DNA from: Congeria kusceri
Lineage: Eukaryota > Mollusca > Bivalvia > Myida > Dreissenidae
Assembly (NCBI GenBank): GCA_027627225.1
Contig: CM051024.1
Coordinates: forward strand, 80,631,204 to 80,695,203
DNA: 64,000 nt
Direction of reading: 5' to 3'
A model generated the notes under the pieces. The model did no database searches. It had not been told where the DNA came from and worked only from the letters and a program-made list of their open reading frames with translations. Of the stretch, positions 24,205 through 53,972 are shown one piece after another (positions within the stretch are counted from its first letter, which is position 1; every line of letters begins with the position of its first letter). Both the position numbers and the translations under genes were made by a program.

Positions 24205-25520
24205 TTTATCATGCTCCCTATCACCACCATTATCATCCCTATCCCCACCATCATCCCCTCTATTCCCAACATCAACCTTCCGTTCTCTACTATCATCATC
24301 CCCATCTCCACGATCAAGCTCCTCTATCGTCATCCTTCTTATCCCCACCATCATCCTCCCTATCTCCACTATCATCCTCCCTATCCCCATCATCATCCTC
24401 CCTATCCCACCATCACCCTTCCTATCTTCAACATCATCCTCTCTATCTTCAACACTTCAACAGCATCCTCCATATCCCCACCATCATCCTCCCAATCTTC
24501 ACCATCGTCCTTCCTATCCCCACCATCATCCTCCCTATCTCCATCATCATCCTCCCTATCCCCACCATCATCCTCTCAATCTTCACCATCATCCTTTCTA
24601 TCTCTACCATCATCCCGTCTATCACAACCATCATTCCCTCTATCCCTACCATCATCCTACCTATCTCCACCATCATCCTCCCTATCCCCACCATCATCCT
24701 AAATCTCCCCACCATTATCCCTGTATCCACCATCATCATCCCTAGATCCACGATCATCCTTATAATAACCATCATTATCCTGCCTATCTCCACTATCATC
24801 ATCCCAATCGCCACCATCATCCTTCCTATCTACACCATCCTCCTCCCAAACTCTACCATCATCCTCCCTATCACGACCATCATACCCTCTATCCCAACCA
24901 TCATCATCTCTATTACCACCATCATCTCCCTCTCTATCACCACCATCATCCCCCTCTCTTCACCATCATCTTTCCCCTTTCTATCCCAACCATCACCCCC
25001 CTCTCTTTCACCACCATCATCCCCCTCTCTATCATCATCATTATCATCATCATCATCATCCCTATCCCAAAGATCATCCTTTCTATCCCACCCATCATCC
25101 TTCCTATCAATAACATCATCATCCCTATCCCCGCCATCATTCCCTTCTATATCACCACCATCATCCCCTCTCTATCACCAACAATCATCCCCCTATCTAT
25201 CACCACCATCATACCCCTCTCTATCACCACAATCATCCCCCTCTCTATCCACACCATCATCCCCCTCTCTATCACCACCATCAACCATATCACTACCATC
25301 ATTCCCCTCTCTATCACCACCATCATCCCTATAACAACCATCCCCCTTTCTATCACCATAATCATCCCTCTCTTTATCACCACCATCATCCTGCCTTTTC
25401 CTTACCACCATCACTCCTTTCCCAAGTATCATCATCCCTATCCGAAACATCATCATCCTTATCACCACCATTTCCCCCTCTTTATCACCATCATCATCCC
25501 TATCCCAACCATCATCCTCC
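24205..25520. repeat. CCATCATCCTCCCTATCC minisatellite, about 1.3 kb
   Basis: Imperfect 18-24 bp units (multiples of three predominate) are built on CACCATCATCC and CCCTATC. Because units are rarely out of phase and contain few stops, frames stay open for hundreds of codons on both strands (Ser/Pro/Ile-rich plus, Met/Gly/Val-rich minus). No start context, splice signal or protein domain supports a gene. Confidence 0.93.
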
Positions 25521-37139: not shown

Positions 37140-37207
37140 TCAGAATAGCCGAGTGGTTACAGTGAGAGGTTTTTGATCCTGGCGGACGTGGTTTGAGTCC
37201 CGCCCAG
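37140..37207 (+). other. tRNA-like segment with Pol III A and B boxes
   Basis: AATAGCCGAGTGGTTA matches box A of Ser/Leu-type tRNAs, and GGTTTGAGTCCCGC matches box B. The arms between are irregular. A tRNA-derived repeat is the likeliest reading. Confidence 0.5.
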
Positions 37208-37414
37208 AGCAATTTTTATTTATTTATTTTCTTGATATACTATTTGTTTTTGGTCAATCCAACATCTTTAGTTTAAATTGCAGTTAAGACGTTAAGTGAC
37301 ATTTTTCAAAAATACGAAAATGTGTGAACAAGTCCCTTTAAAAGAAATGGGCCGCGTCGCGACAAAACCTGCCTTAATGACATTGATGACGTTTGTGGGA
37401 AAACCCGCTTAAAG

Positions 37415-37422
37415 TGACGTCA
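37415..37422. promoter_or_regulatory. TGACGTCA (CRE-type) palindrome upstream of the transposase-like gene
   Basis: A perfect cyclic-AMP-response-element octamer lies 78 bases before the ATG and 66 bases inside the left end. A second perfect copy lies at 41526-41533 near the right end. It may be a promoter element or a subterminal transposase site. Confidence 0.4.
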
Positions 37423-37499
37423 TTGTTTTTAACCAGGAAGTATTTTCGTGTTTGGTGAAAATTAGTTATTTACGGCATAGTTTTTATTTTCGGAATAAC

Positions 37500-40400
37500 A
37501 TGATGGATGAAGAAATGGAGGTAAGTATTTGTTTGTTCATTGTAGTAGTGTTATGAAAGTTTCTGTTTGAAATGTGTTAATTTCCAGAGCTTTAATAACA
37601 TGAACCGTCTGAAGTGAAAGTAAAAGAAAACGACTGTCGCAGGTTTGCTCAATAGCCTAGTGTCTTACCACTAATGTTTAGTAAACTTAACGCTATCCAA
37701 ATCGAAATCATTGAATGTTATGTAATGAGTAATAAAACGATATTTTTTCTGTACATTTTAAATAAATAAATGTAGAGGTAGATATTATTATTTCTCGAGT
37801 GTTTTAAGATCCCATACTGACCCTATAAGCACAAGCATGTAGTTATGAAAGATTGTTATTAACGTACTATTATTGCTTCAAATAGCAACGAATTTGACAT
37901 ACCTTTCAGAATAAAAATGAAAATAATTGGAGTTTTTGACATTTCAAATTTGTCGAGTCATTCTCGTCATTTAATTGTAAATAGATCCACACAATTTGCT
38001 TCTTAACTCATCAGACGAGTCTGTGGTGTAGAGGTTACATAGTTCGCTTAAGAATCGGTTGACTGAAGTTCAAATCCCTCCTCCAGAATGTTTTTTTTTT
38101 CCCTGTTATTTGTAATTTTCAGCTATTTACATGCACACCATTATTTATTATTTAACTAATACTTAATCTTTATCACGTTAAATAGAGCACATGCCATTCA
38201 ATTTAAATTTAAGCGCTTCATGTTCCCCTACAAGCAAAGTGCATCATGTTCAATTTTGTTCAATTTTTTAAAAGTACGGTTAACTAATAGGAACTTACAA
38301 TAATATAATTGATTGACAACGAAATGGTGAACTGAGTAATAAGTCAGCTTCTTAATGAAGCGTTTTTTTTTGTAATTTGATTTCCAGAAGTGAATTGCAT
38401 AAGTCCATTGTCTGAAATGCGCATATGTATTTAATTTGAGACTTAAAAGGATTTTTTTTTTAATATAGGAGTTGGAGAGTGTACTCTCTCAACATTTTGG
38501 GAAGACCCCTGTTACTACGCCATTTGCTTCGCAAGAGATTGACGAGTTCTCAGCAGATGAAGAAGAAGTTGAAATTGATGTGAGTGCAGATGGCATCGGT
38601 GAAATAATCGAAGGACGGGTTCGAGATTACGTGTCTCACCAGGAAGTTGATGAAGAGGAAGAAGATGAAGAGAGTGATGATGGGCGTGACATTCTGGATT
38701 TGGCTTCGAACGATGATGAGGATTTGAAACAAGTTGAAAAGTTCTGTACTGAGGGTTGTGGATGCAGACACGACTGTGCACAGAAACTGAATGTAGGGAC
38801 AGTGTATGAACATATTTTGAATGTCCGTGAAATGGAAAAAAATGCAAAAGATCTATATTTGATGGGCGTTCTGCAAGATGATAGAAGCTCGGCTGTCACA
38901 AACAGAGGAAAGAAGAGACAACGAAGTAGATGCACTTTTAAATTCAGTGGTAAAATAGTGTGTCGACCAACATTTCAAGTGTGTTATGACATCGGACGAA
39001 TTGCGCTGAACAATTTGATGTCGCACATGTCACAACATGCCGTCGTGTCTAGAACACACGGCAATGTAGGCCGACGCCCAAAGCACGCACTAGGGTTTGA
39101 CGACGTTCAGCGTGTAGTTAAATACCTACAGAATTACGCTGAGCACGAGGGTATCCCGATGCCGGCGGCACCACGGGGAAGGGACAACATACCACCGACG
39201 TACTTACCTGCGAGCACTACAAAGCTCAACTTGTACAAAGACTACACAAAGCAGTGTACATCGGATCATAGAATCATTAAAGTCACTGCTTTCAAAGATG
39301 TATGGTCGAAATGCATCCCACACATCCGGATTGCCTCTCCCCGTGATGATGTCTGCGCCACGTGTGAAAAAATGCGAAAACGCGTGGTAGACGCTCTAGA
39401 GGAAGAGGCTAAGCTTGAGGCGACAGACGCGTACGGTGACCATATAAGGCGTGCTCAGATGGTAATCACCTATATGGTTAAACATTGTAAATGCGCTTAA
39501 ATTATTGTCATGTTTATTCTTCATCTTTTCGTATTGACATTCGTGGCATTAATCCGACTCTGTAAACACATTCATTTCCTTCTGTTTGAATTTTTTAATA
39601 ATTTAACAATAAAAGATGTTATTATTTTGTAAGAGAAATTATTTATTATTTCTGTCATTATTTTTATTTTTCAGGAACGGGAGCTCTATAATGAGTGTAT
39701 ACGAAGAAGTCGAGAAACACCGGACGCTGATCGTTACCATCATTTCACATTTGACTTTAGCCAAAGTGTGAGCCTTCCTCATCACTTCAACCAGATGGGA
39801 CCATTATACTTCCTGTCCCTGAGGAAGATCCATATCTTTGGTTTCAGAATAGATGGCGACCCGCGCCAACTCAATTTCATCATTGATGAAAATGAGACCA
39901 TGGCTAAAGATGGTGGCGAAGCTCAAGGTCCTAACGCTGTCATCTCCATGATTGATTGGGCGATCGAAAACCGTGGCGGTGATCCGGCGTCTTTTGCCAT
40001 GCATGCCGATAACTGTCCAGGTATTAATATGTATAATTAAACTATAAAGTACATATTTTTTTACTTTGTGAAAAGTGTGTGTCACATTCGCGTATTGTTT
40101 ATGTTTAACTTATTTTTATGAATTTCAAATATGCATTTTATGTAAAAGTTAAATAATAATAATAGTAATTACTTAGTAAGAAAATAACATATTTGTCATT
40201 TTCTTAATAAATATTTATGCTTCAATATTTTTTTTTTCTATTTCAGGTCAAAACAAAAACCGGTTCCTGTTGGGCTACTTCATGTGGCGAGTCATGACTG
40301 GACAGCAACAAACTATAGAATACCTTATGCAGATACCAGGTTGGTAACACAACACAAGATACTGATATTAAAATTGATTCGCAAATAAGAACGTATGGGT

Positions 40401-41160
40401 GCTCATAATCATTTGAATCATTTGTATACATGTATTTAATTATTTTTTAATGTTTACGTCATGAATGAAGTTAAATTCAAATTAACAGCAACATAAACAT
40501 AATTTTCAAGACCAAGCACGCAACAGGAAATATGTACTTGGGTATATTAAGTGAACATCATTACAGGACATGCAAAATGCCACGTGGACGGAGGCTTTGG
40601 GAACATTAAGACGCTCTTCAGACGGACCGATTGTGAGAGCATGGACCAATTGGAGGCCGTTGTAAATAATTCGTCTGAAACGAACACCGCCGTGCGATAC
40701 CCGGCATGGTCCTGGAGGAACTGGAAGGAGTTTCTTGGAGAGCATTTCAAGGCAGTCAATGGAATAAGGTAGCAGCATGCATAATAATACTATTAATTTA
40801 TTGACTATTTCGGCGTTCAATTTTAAGTCCTAGTAGCTTCTTTTTATTTTTTTAAACTGTACATTATTTCGTAATTCAGAAAAAAAAATGTGTGTATTCG
40901 TTTGCAGGCAGTACCAGTACTTTAAGTTCTCTGCCGATGAGCCAGGAATAGTAACGTTAAGGGCATCACGTGACGCTGTACATAAGACTGCGTGCATTTT
41001 AAAGGACCCAGCGTTCCGCTTCAGTAATGCTACTCGACCAGATGTTGTGCCCGCGGCCGGCTTGAGCACAGCAAGACAGGCATATCTCTATAACTCTGTT
41101 CGACCGTACGTTCGACCCGCGTACCAGGACTCCATATGCCCAGGATCAGACGCAAAATAA
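37500..41160 (+). CDS. DUF7869-like transposase-like protein, six exons, 635 residues, intact
   Basis: Exons are 37500-37520, 38469-39461, 39675-40020, 40247-40339, 40567-40768 and 40908-41160. All have GT-AG borders and join in phase without a stop, from ATG (MMDEEME) to TAA. The N-terminal 90 residues are very acidic (EEEDEESDDG). Then comes a Cys/His cluster CTEGCGCRHDC, and TRTHGNVGRRPKHAL, a basic block likely to bind DNA. DDVCATCEKMRK is a second Cys pair. The core has HHFTFDFSQSVSLP, FIIDENE, MHADNCPGQNKNRFLLGYF, then GHAKCHVDGGFGNIKTLFRR and WSWRNWKEFLGEHF. This block order matches the family I know as DUF7869, common in cnidarians, molluscs and fish. The repeated Asp/Glu blocks suggest an RNase H-fold (DDE/D) nuclease, which is inference. 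The TIRs around it indicate a transposase. Confidence 0.85.
38024..38091 (+). other. tRNA-like segment in intron 1 of the transposase-like gene
   Basis: TGTGGTGTAGAGGTTAC resembles box A and AAGTTCAAATCCC is a good box B, 40 bases apart. The acceptor stem is poor. It is probably a tRNA-derived insertion. Confidence 0.4.
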
Positions 41161-41340
41161 TTGTGCTCATCTTGATTGATTTGCAGCATGAATGACGATC
41201 ATCATATCAATGTGTTGTGTTAACAGTATTTGACAGGCATTGGGTTTTAGTAAATCTGATATAATATAACGTACTCAACTAAAGTATTGCTGTCCATCTT
41301 TATCTCCCATACTCTTTGCATTCCTTCGTTGCTAGGCAAC

Positions 41341-41346
41341 AATAAA
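41341..41346 (+). terminator. Polyadenylation signal of the transposase-like gene
   Basis: AATAAA lies 181 bases after the stop, well inside the right TIR. Confidence 0.55.
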
Positions 41347-41980
41347 GTATTATTCTATGACAACATAATGAATTAAACAACTTAGCTAACCACTGTTATG
41401 GTCCATATGATAAATCAACATGTTAGTATGTTGTTTTAATAAAACCAGAATTAAAATACAACGCGTGATATTTTCTCGATTTGTCGCAAATGACTTCAAC
41501 GTCAAACATAAAATGTTACATTACATGACGTCACGGAAATGCGCATAACTTTGGCGTTTCTTAACCGATTTTAATTATCTTTTTACCGTCCAACTTAAAA
41601 ATGAATGCACTATAAAAATCGACAAAAAAACAAAAATGTGAAAAATTGCCATTTAGGCATGTTTTTTCACGACGCGGCCCAAATATATTTTCATGCTATT
41701 GCAACTACTGGTATTTGGCCAGTCTACTGCAGGTAAGATTAACATCATATGTTAGCGCTACCAGTAGCCAAAATAGCCATTGGCTACAAAACTTTATAAT
41801 TGGCTATACAAAATTATATTTGGCTACTAAAATTTTTGGAAAACATTTAAACATGAAGCATATTTTCTGAAAATATATCTAAATAATGGGTTTTCTTTGC
41901 AAAATCAATTTTTTTGGCTTAATTTAAAATGTATAGCAGGTTGACCAATTTTGTATAATGTCATTAATTAAGATGTTTTT

Positions 41981-42214: not shown

Positions 42215-43195
42215 TAATTTTAAAGGTTATGAATGAAAACTATAGCCTATAATAGGAATGTATACTCCACAAAAGTACATTCACATGCGTTTCAGTGATG
42301 TCAATAAACCATAACAATTCAAAATGACGTCAGCTTCACTGATAAACATTGAGCGAATGGCGTTTTAATTGTTGATAAATACTGTGAAAATATTAAGCAC
42401 CTGCATTTTACGGAACGCTTTTTAATTACCGGAACTATTTTCAAAAGATAAGGCCCCGCCAATAATTTGTTGCAGAATAACCCATGGTTTATTTTATTCT
42501 TTATCTATGGAAAATTATCGACATGGCCGTGTTGTGTTAAGATAAAATATAACGCGATTAATCACACTAATAAATTTGCTGTTTATTTCTTGTGTAATTA
42601 AATATTTTAATATTGATTATAGCGATAAATAAGAACATGATAATTAATGCAAGGCATATAAAAATGAAATATAGGATGTATATTTTGTGTGTGAGATTGC
42701 TTAAGCTAATTCATACATTTATACTTCAGAACTCAAATACATGAAATTTATTGTTCCAATTAGTGAAATTATTCCAACATTCAATTAATTGCCATATGGT
42801 GTACGTTGTAATACATAATGCAACTTCAACAAAAGCAACTACATTGTTTTCCTACTGATAACCCATGCTTTATTTGCACAAAGATTACACGTACAAAACA
42901 ACACCCACATTTTGAAACAGTTGTGATAGTGAAGTTACATTTTTTAAATAGTCGCGAAAATACATGAGAATATAGATATATTTACTTTAATTCTGATTTA
43001 AAGTGCAATTATGATTATTAAGTTATGAAAACAAAAATTCCCAAGTGCAAAACACATATTTACTTACTTGATATTTAAGGAATGCAAACTGCATTGTGCT
43101 CCTCGAAAGAAAATCTGCAATTGACAAAACAAAATGGCGGCCGTGAAAACTGCCTTGAAGTGGTCATAGAAGCACACATCAGATTGACCGATATG
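42215..43195. other. Intergenic, no feature seen
   Basis: Very AT-rich. The first GC-rich patch (CAAAATGGCGGCC at 43130) leads into the minisatellite. Confidence 0.4.
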
Positions 43196-43198
43196 GGC

Positions 43199-44122
43199 AT
43201 GTTTGATGGGTCCCATATGGACTTGCTAGTTAGGAACCCATATGGTCTCTCTTGCTGGGACCCATATGGGCTTGCTATTGGTGACCCATCTAGTCCTGCT
43301 TTTTGGGGGCCCATATGGGCTTTCTTGCTGGGACCCATATGGGTTTGCTTTTGGGTGACGCATATCTAGGCTTTCATGCTGGGACCCATATTGGCTTGTT
43401 TGCGTGGGTCCTACCTGGGACTGATAAGGGCATAACAATGTATGTGGGACCCTCGCGGAACCCATGTGGTTAATCAGCCCAGTTATAGCCAATATTGGGC
43501 CCCCATAGGCTGGCTTGCCGGGACGCATACGAGCGTACTTGCTGGGGACCCATATGGCTCTATTAATGGGACCCGTATTGTGTTCAATGTTGGGCTTGTT
43601 TGTTGGAGACCCATACGGGCCTTTTTGCGGGGACCTATATGGGCTTGCTTGTTTGGTACCCATATGGGCGGTCCTGCTGGGACCCATATGATATTGCTGT
43701 TGTTGACCCATATGGGCTTGCTTGTTGGGGACCCATATGGGCTTTCTTTCTGGGACCCACATGGGATAACTTGTTGGGGACCTATTTAGGCTTATTTTGC
43801 TGGGACCCATATGGGCTTTCTTGTTGTGCGCCCAATTGGGCTTTCTTGCTGGGACCCATGTGGGCTGTTTTGATGGGACATATATTGGGCTGTTTTGAAG
43901 GGACCCATATCAGCTTGCCTGTTGGGAACCCATATGGGGATGCTCTTTGTGACCCATATGGGCTGGTTTGTTGGGGACCCATACGGGCCTTCTTGCTGGG
44001 ACCTATATGGGTTTGCTTGTTTGGTATCCATATGGGCTCTCCTGCTGGGACCCATATGATATTGCTGTTGTTGACTCATATGGACTTGCTTGTTTGGGAC
44101 CCATATGGGCTTTCTTGCCGGG
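43199..44122. repeat. GGGACCCATATGGGCTT minisatellite, about 0.9 kb
   Basis: Imperfect 33-42 bp units are built on the palindrome CCCATATGGG plus a CTTGCTTG or CTTTCTTG spacer. A higher-order copy exists: about 135 bp near 43617-43760 (with GATATTGCTGTTGTTGA) recurs near 43987-44120. Several open frames on both strands result from it and are not genes. Confidence 0.92.
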
Positions 44123-44124
44123 AC

Positions 44125-45915
44125 CTGATTTACAAGATATACTTTGCCCTGTCATGCAATTTAAATGGATAAATGTTGGGGAAAATGAACGGGTGAATTT
44201 TGTGCAAATCATCCTTGATTTATGTTTAATTGACCAACGTTAGCCTACTGCACGGAGTGTTTAGAGCTTCGCAGCTGGCGAGTCATTTGCGTACTTGGAA
44301 ATGGGATTTGTACAATGATAAATGGGACATTCAGCTCCCAGAGGTGACAATTTGATGCAGCAAGCACATTGTTCGAGGTGTTCTTGTGGCATTCTTATGC
44401 AAGCTCCACGGGATGACTGCATGCCATGCTCGCTTGGTTTTCTGGTGGCTTCCTTGTCAAAATAATGTGAGACGTTTGTTCAACTGGATGTCTGTTATTT
44501 GACTGAAACCTTTTGTTTCTAAACCGTTCTTTGTCCTAATCTGTAAAATTGTGCATTTTTATGTTTGTGTTTGCTAAATTTAATTTTTTTTCCTCTTTTG
44601 ATAAATATAAATTTAATTATAAATAATAAATATTTTTATCCAAAAAGAACTTTTTTATGTGTGTGTTGAATTTTCTCTCGATGTTCTTTCTTTTCTTTCA
44701 GGCATAATGCTCATCAAATAGGCAAAAAGAGACAAACAACATACATTTTACATTGTTTATACTTTATTATTAATTAATTCATTTATTTATTATTAATTAA
44801 TTTTTTGACAATGCCATGTATAAATGTGAATAAATCTGTTAATCTCTATTTCTATTTGTGTGTGTGTGTGTTTTTGTGACAAGCACTGCATGTAAAAAGT
44901 AGTCCCTCGTGAATATTAATTGAGGCAACCAGCTTCATTGAAAAATAAATGCCTGTTACATGATGCATTTCAGCCAATCAGAACACTGTAAAATTATCAG
45001 ACCAAATGAAATTGTAATTATTAAGTGATAACAAACATAACATACATACATACATTCATCATTCAGAATCATTCAGACAGATTCAGATTCTAATAAAAGT
45101 TTACCTGTATGAAAAGCAAAAAAAAACACATGCATTATTCTGACATGATATTCTGATTCAAATAAAAGTTCAGCGGTTTAATAAAGCGAAAAAGAAAAAA
45201 AAAAGGCTACGAATACAAGTGAGTGTACAAAGGGGATACTGTTCGGCGCGGTATTTAACATGCACACGCAATCATTTATCGATAATATCCGTGATTATTC
45301 GGAAAAAAACGTTATACACCGGACATATCCGAACGTAATTGCAATATATTCATAGTGTCTATAAATTTTCGGACACCTGTAATTTAGGAATATTTTTGTG
45401 TATCCAAATTTTTGGACACGGACATTTTTAATTATTTTCAAGTGTCCGAAAGCATAGAGCTTTTACGGTATACGTAAAAGGGGTGATCATTTGTAGTGAA
45501 CAAAAGAACAATCAGTGTTTAATAATTTTAGGTTGATTTTAATAATTATTGTCCGAATTGTAAATGTAAACTTAAACGTATATACACACTATATAAATTC
45601 ATTGTGACTTTTATATGCGTTTTCACTGTGATATTTGATTAATACTGTAAAATAATAGTGCTTTATTATATAATTATTTATTAATTAACCGTAAAATGAA
45701 GGATACAAAATTAATATATCTACATTTAACATTCACTGTTCGACACACAATGTAGAATGTTGCGAAAAGACCGTAAAACACTGTGCAACTCTTAATTTTT
45801 TAAGAGCAAAAGCACATATACCTGTTAAATCGCCGTGAATCGCGACGAAATTTCGTGACATATTCGTCGCGAAATCTCGCGCTGGGGCCACCCGCTATAT
45901 TTTGCGAATTGTCGC
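44125..45915. other. Intergenic, no gene seen
   Basis: AT-rich. A short (TG)n run lies at 44858-44872. Inverted words CGGACAC/GTGTCCG occur at 45370-45450. No exon is supported. Confidence 0.4.
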
Positions 45916-50289: not shown

Positions 50290-52870
50290 TTAAACTCTTT
50301 TCAATGTCGAAAAACCTCGCTCGCAATCTGCGGTTGATGCCGGGATGAGAAGTGCAACGGTTGCAAGTCTGATGAGGTTTGGCATCACAACTGCCAGCTT
50401 GGACACAACGTGCTCTAGCAGCTCTTGCGTGGATGTCCTCTTCATCTTCTCATCGCCGTACTCAGTTTGCTTCAATAACTGGTACTCTACCCACGTGTCG
50501 ATTGGGGATGGCAATGTAGAGGCAAATCATCTCAACCTCGGCACGACCATGGTGATGTCGCATATCGTCGTCCTCGGGACACTACCCGCACGTAAAGAGC
50601 GCACCAAACGCCTCCAGCTCCTGAATGTATGTGGGGAAACCTCTTCTCCAGGTTGCTGACTACGGCGTCAAGGAACGCATCGTACACCTGGGTCTTGTAG
50701 AGGTCAACTTTGCCGGAGCTCGGCTCTATAACCTTTCCGTCTGGCGAGAGGGCTTGAAGCCGCTCCGGAAGTGCAGTGAAGTTCTCCCCTGGGTGCGTCT
50801 TCAATGCACTAACTGTAGCAATGGTCCCCTTCCAATCGCCCGTCTGACGAGCCCTGGAGAGAGCAAGGCATCCGACATCAGATGCAGGGAGACAACGAAC
50901 TTGTAGGACTGCATAAAATGGGCAAGGCCCTGCGCCTGGGCGTCACATCGCTCCATCGCCTCATACTCCAGGCTCTCAAGGAGTGCCGGAAGGCACAATC
51001 GGACCGCCCGCACAGCTCGGTCATGCGACAGCCACCGGACGTCTTTCGCCTCTGCCATCTTCAAGAGTGGTTCATTGAGGATGTTCTGGATCTCCCGCAA
51101 TGTGGCTGTTCGCACTCCGCTGTTCGCATAGTACCTGTAAAGTTGCTCAATGATGGCCTTGAACTTCTGTAAGTATGGAATTGCCTCAGCCGCCTGTGAG
51201 CTAGTGCCAGCCTGTGAGCAACGCAGTGGTTGCTCAACAGATGAGAAACCCGCTCTGCCAACTGTGTACTCACACCGGTCTTCCGTCCTACCATGACCTT
51301 AGCACCGTCGCTCCCGAATGCGCATAGCTTCCCCATAGGCAGCTGGTTATCGGACAAAAACGTCTCAACAGACTCACGGATGGTGTCCGCTTTCCCGTTG
51401 GGTATACTACGCAGGGCGGCGAATAAAGTCTTCTACGACCATTGTGTATATATCGAATGTAGATGGACAACTGACAGGTGGTCGCAATGTCGGTTGTCTC
51501 GTCGACCATCAGACTGTAATAGAGAGACGACCTGACTTCGTGGACAATATTGCTCCATATCTGATCGCCGAACATCATAGTGACCTCGTGAATATGGCGG
51601 TTCGATGTGTAGTTTACGTTTCCACAGACCTCCAGCGACCTCAAGACGTCGTGTCTAAGGTCGCGCACGCATGCCATCAGCGGCGCATACTTGGAGTGGT
51701 GCGGGAGCTCCTCCTTACACAGGAAGTATAAGATGGCCATAGCGGTCTTCATGGCCTCCTGGTTTACCTCCTTCTCCCGGTTGAGCGCGCCCTCAATACC
51801 GCCTGCAGTCTGCATGGACGAAGTCTCGAATACCTCGGCCTCACCATGCGAGTCTGAAGCCTTGTGGGCGGCGCAAGCTGTGTGACGTATAGTGTTGCAG
51901 TCAACGTCTACCCATGTTGCGCGTCCGATCGGGTCCTTTTTCGGTCTACGCTGATGCTTAATGCACAACGTGCACAGCTTCCCGTTGCCTGCATATTAAA
52001 AAATATTTTTTAAATGTACATACCGGTAATATATGTGCATAATTTACCTGGTATTGAAAGTAAAATATGATTTTGCATACTGAGAAATTTGTGAACCACT
52101 GTCATTTAGTAACAATTTTCATTGCATTATATTAATTTATACATGTATGTACAAGAACAGTGCTTTGTTAGCTTTTCAGATGATATCATGTAGCAAAGGA
52201 AATGAAAGTCGTATGGTTTCCCGACATGTTTGCGTAGATGTGGATCTTTGCTGCTTATATTTAAAACAAAACTGGTAATAAATTTCCGTTCACTTATTGA
52301 AACTTTTAACGCAAGAACGCACCCAACAGGTGCACTTTCACACATCTCGCTTGCTGTTTGAGCGTATATAAGTCTTCATGTTATAATAAACCTGACAGTT
52401 GCTTTAAATGGCAAGGTAAAAATATTATGCGATCTTGTTTGTTGCAAACACATCAGATAATGAATATGACGCACAGTGTTTCTGTATAGCTCACAAACAT
52501 TAACATGACACTGATATTAATGCATTAATATATTACATTCCGTACTCGACTCAATCTAAATAGATGGAAAGAGTATCTCGCATAAAATACTGTTATGGTT
52601 ACATTAAACTTCTGAAACATGTACACGGACTGAACCCAATATAAACATAAGAAAAAATTCGAGCGCGTTATTTATGCTAATGATTCATGAGTGTCGGCGT
52701 AATATTTGCGAGCTATATGATGCATTTAGTTTTATTCACATACCGTCCATTCTCTCAGTGAGCCATTGGAATTCCTTCTTCTATTTAGGATCGATGCCAG
52801 ACTTTCTTTGCTTTTGAGGTGTACCAAGGCTGGACGGAGATGGTGGAACATCCGTCACTGTATATGTTAC
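50290..52870 (-). pseudogene. hAT transposase (ZNF862-like), frame-broken, two exons
   Basis: The 5' exon (about 52870-52744) ends KKEFQWLTERMD before a GTATGT donor and carries one internal TAG. It joins in phase to the exon starting 51988 after ATATGCAG, giving GNGKLCTLCIKHQRRPKKD, the zinc-finger side of ZNF862-type proteins. Further on are YYSLMVDETTDIATTCQLSI (first catalytic Asp), FGSDGAKVMVGRKTGV (second), SNHCVAHRLALAHRRL (Cys..His pair), EAKDVRWLSHDRAV, and the C-terminal dimerisation motif IPASTADCERGFSTLKR ending near 50290. These blocks lie in changing frames (breaks near 51290-51350, 51065-51110, 50802 and 50515-50530), so no complete protein can be made. It is much more GC-rich than its surroundings. 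Confidence 0.88.
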
Positions 52871-53347
52871 TCGCGATATCTCGCGAGTTCGTGAAAAAAC
52901 TCGTGATATCAGCGAGTTTTCGTTTTGACATCAGACTATTTCGCAATAATTTGGCAGTGTGAATGACTGTGCTATTGTAACATTTTGCTATATTTTACTG
53001 ACAATCGTGTCAAGGACTGTCAACTGGCTTCGGGTACCCCTTTCCTGACACCTGGTGCTCTAACTGTATCCGGTGGCCCCCAATGTGGGCCGTGTCAGGG
53101 TCTGTTTATTGTCAGTCAGGTACCTCTCTTAACAAACAATAACGGACCAACTAATTAACACATACGTAGACGCCATATACTTGAAACGTTCTTTTTTGTT
53201 TGATTTTAATTTTAATCTAAAGCATGTGGAAAACAATATAACACATATGAAATATTATTTTAAAATTCTGAATAATATGAAGGCCATAATTATTAAAATA
53301 AGATATGTTTTTGTCATGAGAATTATAAGTCGATACGCCGATTAGCG

Positions 53348-53972
53348 GCCGTGACGCGTGTGTTTAACAAGCGGATCAAGGCGTGTCGCTATGAAATAAA
53401 AGGGTTGTCGGCAAAATTAAAGCATGTCGGCAAATAGTGTTCTGGTTTGAAGGCTTGTCGGCGCCGACAAGCGATACGGGCCTGCGGGAAACTCTGATGA
53501 CGTATTGGACTTCAAAAATTATTGATACTGCCATAAAGAAGTTACATAATGCAGGCTATAACTCGCTTGCAATAGCAAAAAAAACTGAGGATACATCATT
53601 CCTATAACATCACTGACCGGGGAGTAAGAAACATTCTGTCAAAGGTATACAAACAACGCGGCGGTGACGCGTGTGTTTAACAAGCGGATCAAGGCTTGTC
53701 GCTATGAAATAAAAGGGTTGTCGGCAAAATTAAAGCATGTCGGCAAATAGTGTTCTGGTTTGAAGGCTTGTCGGCGCCGACAAGCGATACGGGCCTGCGG
53801 GAAACTCTGATGACGTATTGGACTTCAAAAATTATTGATACTGCCATAAAGAAGTTACATAATGCAGGCTATAACTCGCTTGCAATAGCAAAAAAAACTG
53901 AGGATACATCATTCCTATAACATCACTGACCGGGGAGTAAGAAACATTCTGTCAAAGGTATACAAACAACGC
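53348..53972. repeat. Tandem duplication, two 313 bp units, nearly identical
   Basis: GTGACGCGTGTGTTTAAC recurs at exactly +313 (53351 and 53664), and the copies run to TATACAAACAACG (53658 and 53971). One difference is seen (AAGGCGTGTCG against AAGGCTTGTCG). Each unit contains the last ~147 bp of the hAT element plus ~162 bp of the following Tc1-like gene start. Confidence 0.93.

Follow-up and report, generated by a model that had tools for sequence, protein, structure and literature searches.

The window analyzed here, a 64,000-nucleotide stretch of contig CM051024.1 of the bivalve Congeria kusceri (GenBank assembly GCA_027627225.1, positions 80,631,204 to 80,695,203 of the forward strand), carries a complete DNA transposon of 4,332 bp at positions 37349..41680 on the plus strand. 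The element belongs to a young family and is very probably an autonomous cut-and-paste transposon, with its DUF7869 protein acting as the transposase. It has defined ends, inserts at AWWT (mostly ATAT), makes a 4-bp duplication, has moved in the past, and has been amplified recently. The features by which cut-and-paste transposons are recognized occur together: terminal inverted repeats (TIRs), a target site duplication (TSD) of fixed length with matching empty sites, and, by prediction, a DDE/D fold of the RNase H-like type. The sole recognizable gene probably encodes the transposase, and fold and conservation together suggest that the DUF7869 core forms a catalytic domain of the DDD type with an RNase H-like fold.

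Ends, copies, and insertion sites

The TIR begins GGGCCGCGTCG, and its left arm (37349..37382, plus strand) and right arm (41647..41680, minus strand), each 34 bp long, match at 29 of 34 positions, or, with the outer T/A counted, at 30 of 35. AAAT directly adjoins both ends (37345..37348 and 41681..41684). An earlier note, made from the letters of this DNA, had described exactly these repeats and this flanking tetranucleotide. Both are borne out, the repeats by alignment of the arms and by a shuffle control: a relaxed 25-bp end pattern occurs at only 2 places in the window, the element's two ends, and at a mean of 0 in 100 shuffles. Across the 1.55-Gb genome (1071 contigs), the TIR pattern with at most one mismatch has 107 forward and 101 reverse matches, while the reversed pattern has 0 and 0. 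Among the 100 TIR places listed, a hand count gives at least 35 inward-facing pairs, 3.0 to 6.8 kb apart, and at least 30 single ends; 6 of the pairs are at loci outside the set fetched for comparison.

How widely is the whole element distributed? A copy search gave 38 matches from the 35 candidates scored out of 383, so the family copy counts are lower bounds. Together with the window, 34 other loci, taken with 400 bp on each side, make up a set of 35, and both ends lie within the stretch at 32 of these. Three pairs of loci share their flanks (99 to 100% over 150 bp on each side) and are either duplicated segments or alternative haplotypes; counting each pair once leaves 29 independent two-ended loci. 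An exact 4-bp duplication is present at 28 of these 29 (ATAT at 23, AAAT at 3, and ATTT at 2), with 4 being the only possible length at 5 loci and many others lying in AT runs that would also allow longer repeats. The copies therefore number at least 35 loci, which share their TIRs and, the three pairs apart, differ in their flanks beyond the 4-bp duplication, rather than being gene copies in unrelated surroundings that lack the repeats.

Past insertion is also visible in empty sites. Twenty-nine element-free junctions were built by removing one copy of the duplication, and the first four were searched (794 nucleotides, the last being short by six bases), with 40 of 2027 candidates scored and five places fetched. 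Uninterrupted sites exist elsewhere in the genome for all four of the junctions searched; empty sites were among the things that the earlier note had proposed to count. At both of its fetched places the window junction is matched, with AAAT present once, at 99.5% across 200 bp and at 98% across 400 bp. The empty site of L011 agrees at the junction; so does that of L010, whose 200 bp contain a 2-base gap at another point, and that of L009 has one base different in the tetranucleotide. The pre-insertion sequence of the window (37149-37348 plus 41685-41884) is itself repeated, being found at 98 to 100% (rounded) over the 200-bp junction in at least 16 of the 40 places listed. Because the window copy sits in repeated sequence, its empty sites are related rather than allelic.

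The family is young and has been amplified recently to dozens of near-identical places. Over 4.3 kb, 31 copies differ from the per-column majority by a mean of 0.18% and from each other by a median of 0.35% and a maximum of 0.81%. There are also older generations, since six loci with variant ends hold diverged relatives (68 to 78% nucleotide identity) that retain the same TIR as well as coding segments, where the earlier note would have doubted the element had related loci lacked the repeat. AAAT, ATTT, or ATAT stands outside the fetched end of these relatives. They look decayed, no open frame longer than 103 amino acids being seen in about 3 kb of each.

The gene and its predicted transposase

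The gene is predicted to consist of six plus-strand exons whose introns are all GT-AG and which join in phase into 635 codons and a stop, so that this part of the earlier description holds at the sequence level. Exon 1 (37500..37520) has only 7 codons and a GT donor, and it is supported by an N-terminal pattern, M....S.HFG.TP, that is kept in the consensus of 16 homologues. Exon 2 (38469..39461) encodes an acidic N-terminal region with conserved Cys/His residues. Exon 3 (39675..40020) contributes the first candidate catalytic aspartate (D365), the conserved E410, and the second aspartate (D450), exon 4 (40247..40339) the QNKN motif, and exon 5 (40567..40768) the third aspartate, D492, in HVDGGFG. 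Exon 6 (40908..41160) ends with the stop codon at 41160. A candidate polyadenylation signal, AATAAA, lies at 41341..41346 and a second at 41438..41443, both within the right end, where the note had placed such a signal. All 635 codons and every GT-AG are kept in 24 of the 35 copies, a number that includes the second members of the three shared-flank pairs and L026. The window copy differs from the per-column family majority by 5 substitutions and 5 indel events, and one of these alters the protein: residue 635 is K, versus E in the 26 other copies whose coding sequence is equally long. "Apparently intact," as the copy had been called, thus suits its reading frame and splice sites, with one protein-changing difference from the family.

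What does this protein do? It matches Pfam DUF7869 (PF25273) with 59.4 bits against a curated cut-off of 26, an entry that bears no functional name. The earlier proposal of a transposase with an RNase H-type core is supported by fold prediction: the structure modeled for a full-length Mya arenaria homologue, 61% identical to the window protein, shows an RNase H core for which integrases and Mos1 are structural matches. In the window protein the candidate triad is D365, D450, and D492, with 84 and 41 residues between them; these acids are conserved in homologues, as read from an alignment of 54 rows. A sequence search of the PDB gave no match to the Mos1 mariner transposase or to retroviral integrases. 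Homologues number 73 at E ≤ 1e-3, with identities of 28 to 71% over 37 to 99% of the query, and come from bivalves (Mya, Ruditapes, Mercenaria, oysters, Tegillarca, Mytilus, and Dreissena) and an acorn worm. These PF25273 proteins have the same acids and, where named, are called uncharacterized or DUF7869, with no mobility in the names seen.

DUF7869 is not confined to this family. A PF25273 search of the Congeria genome gave 115 exon-wise matches in several families, some with stop-free frames of at least 1,000 codons. One lineage (L043-L045, L052, and L053; G000 C5) is homologous over 460 columns (hhalign 99.8%, E 6.5e-29) and shares the RNase H core, with 41 residues between the last two aspartates, but differs in having an N-terminal protease-like domain (PF04843 Herpes_teg_N-like; OTU, PF02338, in relatives). 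The edges common to two of its copies lie about 3.9 kb apart, and no clear TIR or 4-bp duplication was found in the one copy pair examined. Two further DUF7869 proteins, P0023 and P0149, are labeled as metagenome-assembled genomes of Sedimenticola and Thiodiazotropha. Both are bivalve symbionts, and the two sequences are therefore probably host contigs in symbiont assemblies.

Proposed mechanism and alternatives

By analogy with known DDE/D chemistry, the 635-residue protein would bind the TIRs, and the conserved Cys/His positions outside its core could bind zinc and DNA. The transposase would then cut at both element ends and transfer the 3' ends to the two strands of the target at points separated by 4 bp; gap filling would yield the 4-bp duplication. 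Several observations weigh against an autonomous transposon of this kind. Eleven of the 35 copies are broken, by stops (L013 and L017), by coding length changes (L030, L033, L034, L037, L038, L040, L041, and L042), or by a lost splice donor (L024). At three of the 35 loci the fetched stretch does not include the left end, the match starting 14 to 15 bases inside it at L026 and L034 and 596 bases inside it at L040, where the offset probably reflects an insert, since a facing TIR is present at a distance of 6.8 kb. One of the 29 independent loci, L033, has AATT versus ATAT instead of a duplication. As to the enzyme, the third aspartate varies in 2 of 45 rows and 9 of the 54 are gapped there, the structure model represents the Mya arenaria homologue rather than the window protein, and it is poor just past the second aspartate (residues 451-460, pLDDT 62). 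With Foldseek by itself, no PDB entry reached E ≤ 0.001, and Mos1 came closest at 9.1e-3.

Could DUF7869 instead be a captured host gene, carried as cargo by a nonautonomous element that another transposase moves? The many other DUF7869 stretches of the genome, which gave 115 exon-wise matches in all, would suit such a history, which is nonetheless most improbable in view of the integrase- and Mos1-like predicted fold of the protein core, its conserved acids, and the retention of both TIR and coding segments in relatives at 68 to 78% nucleotide identity. Nor does the element offer another evident enzyme: its other open frames of at least 40 amino acids (up to 126) lie antisense to exons or in other frames or introns, and no homology was noticed in them, no homology search having been made. 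That this is an ordinary host gene flanked by inverted repeats through chance, or else a segmental duplication, is a negligible prospect. The three pairs with shared flanks count in favor, but the 29 independent flanks, 28 of them with 4-bp duplications, speak against both readings, and the existence of empty sites refutes them.

Other features of the window

Elsewhere in the window, open frames lie on the minus strand at 50801-51995; for one of the two the only Pfam hit is zf-C17orf113 (E 0.0094, below the cut-off), and for the other there is none. They presumably resemble hAT-derived ZNF862-type proteins. Arrays of 24/49-bp units containing GGGACCCATATGGGC occupy 43186-44125, a 313-bp unit is present at 53345-53972 as two head-to-tail copies that are 99% alike, and in a long 21/42/63-bp array at 24208-25520 each of the three forward frames is open over long stretches.

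Significance

A predicted function, that of a DDD transposase catalytic core, can be offered for a Pfam domain of unknown function. Many gene sets of bivalves and insects contain DUF7869, and if its core is a DDD catalytic domain, many of these "uncharacterized genes" are probably transposase genes, to be masked or else re-examined as possible domesticated genes. Being young and having many near-identical copies with intact frames, the Congeria family is also a candidate active transposon for molluscs, for which few natural tools are known.

Comparison with known superfamilies

Where does the element belong? Mos1 duplicates TA, in contrast to the 4-bp AWWT here, and Tc1/mariner was rejected on this count, the AAAT and ATTT sites containing no TA. 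The Sola superfamily, reportedly described by Bao et al. in 2009, had been hinted at by the earlier note on account of its 4-bp duplications, and membership in it, as the Sola2 type, is the best affiliation and a reasonably likely one, the comparison being with published descriptions, in excerpts of the papers cited.

In these excerpts, Sola elements are mostly 2 to 9 kb long, with DDD transposases, 4-bp duplications, and TIRs of 11 to 1124 bp (PMC10741241), ranges that accommodate the 4,332 bp and 34-bp TIR of the present element. Molluscs yielded 95 Sola1, 105 Sola2, and 64 Sola3 elements in a bivalve survey using profiles of 17 DDE/D superfamilies, Sola1-3 among them (PMC10294476). Repbase superfamilies are listed in PMC4455052, and the excerpted text of PMC12730594 does not mention Sola. 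Alternatively, DUF7869 elements may constitute a separate superfamily (DD41D, GGGCCG termini, and AWWT targets) whose 4-bp duplication is convergent with that of Sola. This is a tentative prospect, favored by the lack of a functional name in Pfam and by the failure to find DUF7869 or its motif strings in the literature searched, including the excerpts of PMC10294476. It is just as doubtful, in turn, that DUF7869 marks a widely spread animal transposase superfamily distinct from Sola, with many members annotated as uncharacterized genes and the bivalve family as a representative that is active now or was so until very recently. Against separation stand the shared 4-bp TSD, the predicted DDD enzyme (D365-84-D450-41-D492), and the fitting size and TIR length. 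The Sola2 elements of two amoebozoans have TIRs of 12 to 13 and 21 bp, versus 34 bp here, but they make AWWT duplications, and those spelled out for one of them, ATAT, AAAT, and ATTT (PMC3627910), are the same three tetranucleotides found at 28 of the 29 independent loci in Congeria.
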